The notes beneath the pieces are model-generated. The model worked only from the letters and a program-made list of their open reading frames with translations, was not told the DNA's origin and did no database searches. From positions 1-37,436 of the forward strand of contig SYIT01000084.1 of NCBI GenBank assembly GCA_005798685.1: a stretch of DNA of 37,436 nucleotides, read 5' to 3'. The translations under genes were made by a program, and so were the position numbers. Positions 35,122-37,436 of this stretch are shown here, piece after piece (the first letter of the stretch is position 1; each line of letters starts with the position of its first letter). The DNA comes from Actinomycetota bacterium. Its GTDB lineage: Bacteria; Actinomycetota; Thermoleophilia; Solirubrobacterales; Solirubrobacteraceae.

Positions 35122-35159
35122 TAATTGTCCCTAAGTCCTGCTAGCTTTGGCGCTACCAG

Positions 35160-35397
35160 AGAAAGGGGGTGGTCCAAATCGATAGACCAATGTTTTTCGG
35201 GACCCTGGAGGTGACCGGCCGCTAGCGCGGTTGGCTGGAACCGCTAAGCGGAAATCCAATCCGGGACACCGTTGGCCGATCCGCCGGAGCTGGTCCCCCC
35301 GGCCGCCCGCCAAAGTGGCGAGTGAATTCCGATCGGCCAATTCAAATTCAGTCAGCTGTCGGGAAGGGCGTCGGGTCTTAGATCCGGCGCCCTTCTC
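35160..35397 (+). ncRNA. Structured noncoding RNA candidate (possibly a raiA-motif-type RNA; identity unverified)
   Basis: Noncoding 288-bp gap with nested inverted repeats: TGGTC/GACCA (35170-35174/35185-35189); CCGCT..GCGGTT/AACCGC..AGCGG (35219-35251); TTGGCCGATC/GATCGGCCAA (35272-35281/35331-35340) enclosing GCCGG/CCGGC and CGCCA/TGGCG; ends in a strong hairpin. Confidence 0.7.
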
Positions 35398-35400
35398 CTT
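35363..35400. terminator. Hairpin terminator between the + strand RNA and convergent gyrA (possibly bidirectional)
   Basis: GAAGGGCGTCGG (35363-35374) pairs with CCGGCGCCCTTC (35384-35395) with one G-U; the stem extends inward (GTC/GAT) to a 3-nt loop; followed by TCCTT on +; ends about 15 nt from the gyrA stop. Confidence 0.8.
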
Positions 35401-35409
35401 TGCGGCGAG

Positions 35410-37436
35410 CTACTCATCCTCTTCGTCGGCCGCCTCAACCTCGTCCTCCTCTTCTTCAGCGACATCTTCTTCCGGCTCGAGTTCTGCTTCGCTGATCTCG
35501 GCCTCTTCGCCGATCTCTTCGGTCGTCGCCTCCAGCTCGTCGCCGTTGAGCTCCGCTTCGCCAGCGCTGCCTTCGGCGTCCTCTACGACCATCGCAACGG
35601 CGCTGACGACGTCACCGTCACGCACGTTCATTGTTTTGACTCCTTGTGCGCTGCGGCCGTAGCGGTTGATGCCGCTGGCTGCGGTTCGCTGCACCATCCC
35701 CTCGCGTGAGATGAAGATCAGGTCCTGATGCTCGCGCACGACCAGCGCTCCGGCGAGCCCGCCTTTCGCTTCGGTCAGCGCGATTGTCTTGACGCCCTTG
35801 GCGCCACGCTTGGTCTTGCGGTATTCGCGCACCTGTGTACGCTTGCCGTAGCCGTTGTCGGTGATTACGAGTAGATCCATGTCGTCGCGGGCGATGTCCA
35901 TCGCGATCACTTCGCTCTTGTCGCCAACGTCCATCCCCTTGACGCCGCTGGTACTGCGACCCATCGATCGGGCGTCCGATTCAGCGAAGCGGACGGTCAG
36001 GCCGGCCCGTGAGGTGATCAGCACCTCGTCATCCTTGTCAACGCCACGGACGACGATCAGCTCATCGTCGTCGCGGATCTTAATCGCGATGATGCCGTCG
36101 GCCTTGATCGGCGTGTTGTACTGCTGCAGCTCGGTCTTCTTGACGGTCCCCTTCCTGGTTGCGAAGACGAGGTACTGCGTCTCTGTGAAGTCGCGCGTCG
36201 CGAGCACCGATTCGATCCGCTCACCTTCACGCAGCGGCAGCACATTCACCAGCGCGCGGCCTTTCGCCGTGCGCGAGGCCTCAGGCAGCTCATAAACCTT
36301 CGAGCGATAAACCTTGCCACGGTTGGAGAAGAAGAGCAAGAAGTCATGCGAGGAGCAGACGAAGAGGTGCTCAATGAAGTCGCCATCCTTCATATCCATC
36401 CCAGTCACGCCGCGGCCGCCGCGCTGCTGCTGGCGGTAGGTACCAAGCGGCAGCGACTTGATATAGCCGCTCTGCGTGATCGTGATCACCATCTGCTGGT
36501 CGGCGATCAGATCCTCAATATCGATCTCATCCTCGCTTTGGGAGATCAGCGTGCGGCGCTCGTCGGCGAAGCGTTCGCTGATTTCACCCAGCTCTTCCTT
36601 AATCAGATCGAGCACCGCCTGCTCGCTGCCAAGCAGTTCACGCAGCTCACGGATCCGTTCCATTACGTCGTCGTACTCGCTCTTGATCGCGTCCGACTCG
36701 AGCGCCGTCAACTGCGCGAGGCGAAGCTCAAGGATCGCACTGGCCTGAATTGCCGAAAGCTTAAAGTCCTTGACCAGCTTCTCGCGCGCAACGTCGCGAT
36801 CGGAGGCGGCGCGGATCAGCTTGATCACCGCGTCAAGGTTGTCGAGCGCAATCAGCAGGCCCAGCAGGATGTGAGCGCGCGCCTCCTTGATCCCGAGCTC
36901 GTGTTTGGCGCGGCGGACGACGACCTGGCGCTGATGAGCAACATAGGCGGTCAAGACTTCGCGCAGCGACAGCGTCCGCGGCACGCCGTCAACGAGCGCG
37001 ACGGCGTTGACACCGAAGGTCGACTGCATCGAGGTGTGCTTGTAAAGCTGGTTTAGAACGACCTTCGGAATTACGTCGCGCTTGAGTTCAATCACGAGCC
37101 GCATTCCGTTGCGGTCCGACTCGTCGCGCAGATCGGTGATGTCGGGAATCTTCTTCTCGTGGACGAGCGCCGCGATCTTCTGGATCAGGCCGCCCTCGCC
37201 GCCCTTCTTGACCATGTAAGGCAGCTCGGTGACGACGATTGCTTCTTTTCCCTGCGTCAGCGGCTCAATGTGCGCCTTGGCCTGTACGCGGACGCGGCCA
37301 CGGCCCGTTTCGAAAGCGTCACGGATCCCCTGGACGCCGAGGATCGTTCCACCGGTCGGAAAATCGGGGCCCTTGATGTGCCTCATTAGCCCGTCAAGCG
37401 AGATGTCGGGATCGTCGATCAGCGCGATCGTCGCCG
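35410..37436 (-). CDS. gyrA: DNA gyrase subunit A, C-terminal portion (5' end off the right edge)
   Basis: Frame continues past the track start: ATIALIDDPDISLDGLMRHIKGPDFPTGG...; GyrA-box QQQRGGRGVTGM; beta-pinwheel repeats; acidic C-terminal tail. Confidence 0.96.
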   Translation of the reverse strand, partial: ATIALIDDPDISLDGLMRHIKGPDFPTGGTILGVQGIRDAFETGRGRVRVQAKAHIEPLTQGKEAIVVTELPYMVKKGGEGGLIQKIAALVHEKKIPDITDLRDESDRNGMRLVIELKRDVIPKVVLNQLYKHTSMQSTFGVNAVALVDGVPRTLSLREVLTAYVAHQRQVVVRRAKHELGIKEARAHILLGLLIALDNLDAVIKLIRAASDRDVAREKLVKDFKLSAIQASAILELRLAQLTALESDAIKSEYDDVMERIRELRELLGSEQAVLDLIKEELGEISERFADERRTLISQSEDEIDIEDLIADQQMVITITQSGYIKSLPLGTYRQQQRGGRGVTGMDMKDGDFIEHLFVCSSHDFLLFFSNRGKVYRSKVYELPEASRTAKGRALVNVLPLREGERIESVLATRDFTETQYLVFATRKGTVKKTELQQYNTPIKADGIIAIKIRDDDELIVVRGVDKDDEVLITSRAGLTVRFAESDARSMGRSTSGVKGMDVGDKSEVIAMDIARDDMDLLVITDNGYGKRTQVREYRKTKRGAKGVKTIALTEAKGGLAGALVVREHQDLIFISREGMVQRTAASGINRYGRSAQGVKTMNVRDGDVVSAVAMVVEDAEGSAGEAELNGDELEATTEEIGEEAEISEAELEPEEDVAEEEEDEVEAADEEDE

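Follow-up and report, generated by a model that had tools for sequence, protein, structure and literature searches.

The gap between an HNH endonuclease gene (Pfam PF01844; 34498-35121, forward strand) and a convergent gyrA gene (35410-37386, reverse strand) raises the question of which RNA it encodes and what such an RNA might do. It spans positions 35122-35409 of the window, by which we mean the whole stretch of 37,436 nucleotides that was analysed. The original prediction for this gap was a highly structured intergenic RNA, and that description is borne out by conservation and by covariation of helix P1a, a pseudoknot and helix P6a (Table 1). Here we describe evidence that the RNA belongs to RF02471 (Ms_IGR-5), an actinobacterial sRNA family which, to our knowledge, is of unknown function and is filed as non-coding, and that it carries an almost complete complement of the 16S rRNA tail followed by a conserved and probably translated micro-ORF.

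Identity and distribution of the RNA

The Rfam scan proposed with the original prediction returned neither raiA nor any other family at gathering threshold (zero matches over the whole window). Run permissively over the gap, it again lacked raiA and had RF02471 as its top match (35155-35348; 22.6 bits, with E 0.0028 for the 401 bases searched), with the window aligned over the full length of the model (positions 1-184). The window itself thus lies below the strict Rfam criterion, the gathering cut-off of RF02471 being 45 bits; a homologue from the same genus and gene context reaches 45.5 bits, just above it. At a loose E of 10, RF02471 matches were found in 50 of 61 relatives.

A second model, R1, was built from 27 Thermoleophilia sequences including that of the window, and its score of 153 bits for the window is circular because the window is one of its training sequences. 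R1 detected homologues in 86 of 199 genomes of the class at E <= 0.01, the weakest among them being uncertain. One locus (G031:C1:347492-347745; L094) has two overlapping R1 matches of 69.9 and 27.1 bits, perhaps through tandem or partial duplication. In the reverse search, R1 recovered 28 of the 28 RF02471 loci tested across the phylum, mycobacterial and Streptomyces-like ones included, with E values from 6e-33 to 2e-3. On the strength of these reciprocal profile matches and the full-length alignment, and despite the sub-cut-off score, we call the window a divergent RF02471 homologue; membership of the structured RNA at 35155-35348 (forward strand) in this family is well supported by the profile comparisons, which also provide evidence that RF02471 is widespread in Actinomycetota. 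The window RNA and RF02471 share the 5' block AGGAGGUGGUCC, the GAGGUG motif, the positions of P4 and P6 and the setting of a stand-alone intergenic gene, whereas they differ in gene neighbours (HNH and gyrA in the window, against a pabC-like gene in M. gordonae).

The suggested likeness to raiA does not extend beyond similar size and complexity. The RF03072 (raiA) model also found no match in 41 relatives, a search that lacked a positive control since none of 14 control genomes gave a match either. The accompanying proposal, that an RNA which is not raiA would be undescribed, is refuted by the reciprocal matches to RF02471, and we give practically no credence to either a raiA-motif RNA or an undescribed class.

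Table 1. Features of the Ms_IGR-5 locus, in window coordinates.
Feature	Position	Strand	Basis or remark
Extended -10 element TGCTAGCTT	35139-35147	+	Predicted transcription start ~35154-35155
Predicted transcript, divergent Ms_IGR-5 RNA, ~190-245 nt	35155-35400	+	RF02471 full-length match; R1
P1a 5' strand CCAG	35156-35159	+	Pairs with CTGG 35205-35208; 98.6% of cells paired
Extended Shine-Dalgarno AGAAAGGGGGTGGTCC	35160-35175	+	Complementary (two G.U pairs) to 16S 3' end GGAUCACCUCCUUUCU
Micro-ORF, 15 codons + UAG, AUC start	35178-35225	+	Frame conservation across homologues
Pseudoknot strand GGGACC	35199-35204	+	Inside micro-ORF; covariation
P1a 3' strand CTGG	35205-35208	+	Partner of CCAG 35156-35159
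P3 5' strand GGTG	35210-35213	+	Pairs with CACC 35267-35270
Hairpin P4, micro-ORF stop 35223-35225 in loop	35215-35234	+	Fold; both-sided changes
Hairpin P5 TGGA..CCGC TAA GCGG..TCCA	35236-35258	+	Fold; pairing register uncertain in distant homologues
P3 3' strand CACC	35267-35270	+	Partner of GGTG 35210-35213
P6a 5' strand TTGGCCGATC	35272-35281	+	Pairs with 35331-35340; swap-test covariation
P6b stem-loop GCCGG..CCGGC, carries pseudoknot loop	35283-35303	+	98.1% of cells paired; three pairs with both-sided changes
Pseudoknot partner GGTCCC	35292-35297	+	Loop of hairpin P6b; covariation
P6a 3' strand GATCGGCCAA	35331-35340	+	Pairs with 35272-35281; swap-test covariation
Strong terminator-like hairpin between convergent RNA and gyrA genes	35364-35397	+	Fold

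Conserved structure and transcript ends

All of the segments named in the original prediction are present in the gap. The fold of 35155-35410 is better than that of 200 shuffles (z -3.16), but z shrinks to only -1.78 when the terminator hairpin is left out, so that the case for structure rests on conservation and not on folding energy. Compared across homologues, P1a, the pseudoknot and the P6 helices are well supported. P1a has both-sided changes in three of its four pairs, its variants comprising CCAG/CTGG, CACA/TGTG, CACG/CGTG, CGCA/TGCG, CGTA/TACG, CTTC/GAAG, CGAG/CTCG and others. A tested structure made up of P1a, P1b and P4 gave 103 double-change cells against 40 ± 4.6 after shuffling, a signal that was lost when the partners were slid.

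The covariation check suggested for homologues found that the proposed pseudoknot and the 10-bp helix both covary. The pseudoknot pairing of GGGACC with GGTCCC is upheld in Thermoleophilia, where it and the P6b stem together show 6 double-change cells against 0.6, and across the phylum, where a swap test on 23 P1-strand types matched 5.39 nt to the own complement and 4.66 ± 0.16 nt to swapped ones (0 of 2000). Variants include UCGACC/GGUCGA (L074), GCGACC/GGUCGC (L122) and UGGACA/UGUCCA (L060), and a P6b-type hairpin of at least 5 bp with GUCC in its loop occurs in 94 of 105 homologues (shuffled, 32 ± 3.5). In L104 and L123 the pseudoknot hairpin seems to be replaced by a plain terminator-like hairpin. 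The pseudoknot competes for the same 3' strand with P1b (GGUCC/GGACC), which RNAalifold favours; covariation supports the pseudoknot and not P1b, which has one-sided changes only, scored 186/2000 in the swap test and was rejected. For the 10-bp helix TTGGCCGATC/GATCGGCCAA (P6a), which the window contains as predicted, outer helices at this place covary among homologues, own partners pairing over 8.0 bp and swapped ones over 6.06 ± 0.16.

The remaining helices vary in their support. P3 pairs in 25 of 27 Thermoleophilia sequences without covariation, and a CACC partner lies 40-110 nt downstream in 98 of 105 homologues; P4 has both-sided changes in five of six pairs, yet in the MAFFT alignment pairing is seen in just 60% of cells. 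The segments of the 33-nt hairpin predicted at 35219-35251 exist, but are better read as the adjacent hairpins P4 and P5, and the TGGTC/GACCA helix (35170-35174/35185-35189), although present in the window, is not general among homologues. Likewise the predicted terminator stem is there as a hairpin, but a consensus scan over it calls no intrinsic terminator. At the other end, a TANNNT element stands 10-14 nt upstream of the first base of the RNA in 63 of 105 homologues (3.8 ± 2.2 in shuffled sequences), and transcription therefore probably starts at about 35155.

A 16S rRNA complement and a conserved micro-ORF

The 5' part of the RNA, AGAAAGGAGGUG[G/A]UCC, is a 16-nt complement of the 3' end of 16S rRNA and hardly varies across the phylum. 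In relatives, three genomes of the same genus included, the 16S genes were read directly and end in ...GGCUGGAUCACCUCCUUUCUA; the complement of the tail GGAUCACCUCCUUUCU is AGAAAGGAGGUGAUCC, from which the window (AGAAAGGGGGUGGUCC) departs by two A-to-G changes, both of which still allow G.U pairing. An exact pattern search for AGAAAGGRGGTGRTCC over the genomes of 41 relatives finds this RNA, in the ...GGTCC form, together with twelve ...GATCC places, ten of which coincide with the antisense of located 16S ends; the other two fall in genomes outside the set used to locate those ends. Apart from 16S antisense, the 16-nt complement is almost unique to this RNA in these genomes.

The statement that the gap has no credible ORF is true for ordinary ORFs and overlooks a conserved one of 15 codons downstream of this complement (AUC GAU AGA CCA AUG UUU UUC GGG ACC CUG GAG GUG ACC GGC CGC UAG), which in the window would encode the peptide (M)DRPMFFGTLEVTGR, provided that initiator tRNA reads AUC. 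The AUC codon lies 8 nt past the Shine-Dalgarno core, and the in-frame AUG at 35190 lies 20 nt from it, which is far for initiation. An AUC codon at 8 nt with no nearer NUG is found in 26 homologues, the window included. L077 alone lacks an in-frame start of the NUG, AUC or AUU kind, and has ACG at the 8-nt spacing.

Conservation of this frame is seen in several ways. A stop codon lies exactly 9 nt past GAGGTG in 101 of 105 distinct homologues (TAG 80, TGA 15, TAA 6; never TGG), and in 100 of 101 one of TTG, ATG, GTG, CTG, ATC and ATT occurs in that frame among the five codons that follow the Shine-Dalgarno and the frame stays open, against 37 ± 5 for shuffled loops and 49 and 4 for the other two frames. 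Because the sequences are related, such counts overstate independence, which is partly corrected by taking 27 diverged loop-cluster representatives: the GAGGTG frame passes in 23 of them and the other two frames in 8 and 3, the shuffled value for the former being 6.7 ± 2.3 with a maximum of 14 in 2000. The four representatives that fail are L077 and L104, L106 and L123; the last three retain a UUG and a stop in frame with each other, but with the frame shifted by one, and the same one-base shift occurs in L102, which is not among the 27. In all of these shifted homologues start and stop have moved together relative to GAGGTG, which is hard to explain by RNA constraint. A frame-free test, requiring a start 7-14 nt after the core and the first in-frame stop 12-20 nt after the start of GAGGTG, is passed by 104 of 105 homologues (shuffled loops 23.5 ± 4.0, maximum 38 of 105). 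As all of these frame tests rely on related sequences and on single-base shuffles, their tails are not to be taken as probabilities.

The conserved ORF is 10-17 codons long, begins with UUG, AUG, GUG, CUG, AUC or AUU, no single one of which is common to all homologues, and ends with UAG, UGA or UAA at one site, in or beside hairpin P4. Its L, E and V codons have no synonymous change among homologues; a codon-substitution test is weak, since the lack of synonymous change in GAG GTG reflects strong RNA constraint. From these comparisons the 16S-tail complementarity and the conservation of the ORF are well supported, like family membership. Judged by sequence conservation, there is an ORF behind a ribosome-binding site, which is one of the marks of a dual-function sRNA, and it is probably translated.

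Gene neighbourhood

The 30 best RF02471 loci in the genomes of relatives mostly adjoin HNH, gyrA or both. Neighbourhoods were read closely in four contexts, the window and three others in which names were in part assigned by eye from translations: in M. gordonae (L151 4471-7093) the RNA is flanked by a pabC-like gene on one side and a convergent gene on the other, in another member of the phylum it converges on ligA, and in a Streptomyces-like genome a same-strand gene begins ~340 nt past it. The product of the convergent gene in M. gordonae starts, by eye, like a TIR-domain protein. A function linked to HNH was dropped, no HNH homologue lying near the RNA at the phylum-level loci tested. Within the window, GyrA has a long acidic C-terminal tail of ~60 residues rich in E and D (35410-35600, reverse strand), and a DUF4446 protein (PF14584; 33057-33617, forward strand) is encoded immediately upstream of a prephenate dehydratase gene, which it almost overlaps.

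Discussion

Earlier reports describe Ms_IGR-5 transcripts in M. smegmatis and Streptomyces (PMC10454040, PMC8079986, PMC8780764), with ncMSMEG15794c overlapping Ms_IGR-5 (PMC10454040), and ribosome-protected reads on it in M. abscessus and M. smegmatis, with the caution that structured non-coding RNAs can yield ribosome footprints without being clearly coding (PMC4974804). The open-licence literature that names Ms_IGR-5, supplements aside, treats it as an sRNA and in its accessible portions makes no mention of an ORF, a 16S complement, P1a or the pseudoknot; for the M. tuberculosis homologue that literature holds nothing usable. Against this body of work, as far as it is accessible, the 16S-tail complement and the conserved micro-ORF are new. 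An anonymous sRNA, expressed in mycobacteria and Streptomyces, thereby becomes a testable candidate for a ribosome-linked regulator, on the basis of its wide spread, its near-full complement of the 16S tail, its covarying pseudoknot and its micro-ORF with frequent non-AUG starts, and the case shows that a tiny ORF can hide inside a curated RNA family.

According to the model that we favour, Ms_IGR-5 RNA would be made from its own promoter as a free-standing molecule, showing the extended Shine-Dalgarno at its 5' end in a loop closed by P1a and by the pseudoknot formed with the P6b loop. There a 30S subunit would dock and often start at a weak non-AUG codon (UUG, AUC, CUG or AUU; AUC in the window), and the 10-17-codon ORF would be translated up to a stop in or beside hairpin P4. 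Because the ORF overlaps one strand of the pseudoknot and one strand of each of the helices P1a (3'), P3 (5') and P4 (5'), the translating ribosome would have to open the fold, and the RNA could thus act as a translation-gated regulator that responds to initiation capacity. We give this reading, in which a free-standing RNA engages ribosomes and is opened by translation of its micro-ORF, a slightly better than even chance; we infer that the ORF is actually translated in this organism and that the fold switches, as well as any target of the RNA. The published ribosome-protected reads in two mycobacteria are in keeping with this reading, subject to the caution given with them. Sensitivity to initiation factors is plausible, given that in S. 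aureus non-canonical starts accompany extended Shine-Dalgarno motifs (infC AUA, cvfC1 AUU, ccpN AUA; PMC13009471). A bolder version, in which Ms_IGR-5 is a phylum-wide, free-standing initiation sensor whose start at a weak codon, behind the near-full 16S-tail complement and within the loop closed by the pseudoknot, would signal the state of 30S or IF3 and switch the fold, the peptide being irrelevant, strikes us as doubtful, if conceivable.

The RNA might instead be a small mRNA whose 10-17-residue peptide is the product, with RNA structure merely tuning its translation. Thermoleophilia do have a partial peptide consensus, (start)-S-D-S-x-x-G-T-L-E-V-x-G-R, with a related one in other families, and the Ser codon after the start varies among AGT, TCT, AGC and TCA and the Asp codon between GAC and GAT. 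Across the phylum, however, there is hardly any conservation of the peptide: the codon in P1a specifies L, R, C, P, Q, H, E, Y or V, tracking the helix, E and V are fixed where the RNA fixes GAGGTG too, and the peptides of divergent members, for instance (M)QQDCGGGSS and (M)LKTSGGDCR, are unrelated. We therefore think it unlikely that the peptide is the product, and since it is weakly kept between families the act of translation is the likelier conserved function. Somewhat less likely still is a non-coding decoy that pairs with the 16S tail and holds 30S subunits untranslated, the ORF being a by-product of RNA constraints. The near-uniqueness of the 16-nt complement, which could trap 30S without initiation, and the footprints described in PMC4974804 would suit such a decoy, but start codons are replaced by other starts and stop codons by other stops while both stay in frame, even where the frame shifts relative to the RNA, and stops abound in the other frames. 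A leader or cis-acting attenuator serving a neighbouring gene would account for the leader-peptide layout of short ORF, competing helices and end hairpin; on the four contexts read closely we hold it to be very improbable, the next gene being convergent in the window, in M. gordonae and in the ligA member, and the same-strand gene in the Streptomyces-like genome beginning only ~340 nt further on. It is the free drift of the peptide, together with a neighbourhood that differs by clade, that leads us to favour the free-standing, translation-gated RNA over both a peptide gene and a cis attenuator.

Several known systems share parts of this arrangement. The dual-function sRNAs SgrS/SgrT and SR1/SR1P are likewise regulatory-type RNAs that hold a short ORF, whereas here the peptide is poorly conserved and the ORF of 10-17 codons often starts at a codon other than AUG. 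In S. aureus infC, cvfC1 and ccpN a very strong Shine-Dalgarno similarly drives a weak start codon, but these begin real protein genes, in contrast to the tiny ORF of the stand-alone RNA described here. The 6S-like RNA Ms1/scr3559 is also a stand-alone structured RNA of actinobacteria, but occupies a separate locus from Ms_IGR-5. We set the two apart because map positions differ: in S. coelicolor scr3559 and 6C RNA both flank gene SCO3558 (PMC8539372), and PMC8079986 places Ms_IGR-5 of S. lividans at 3.70 Mb and 6C RNA at 4.53 Mb.
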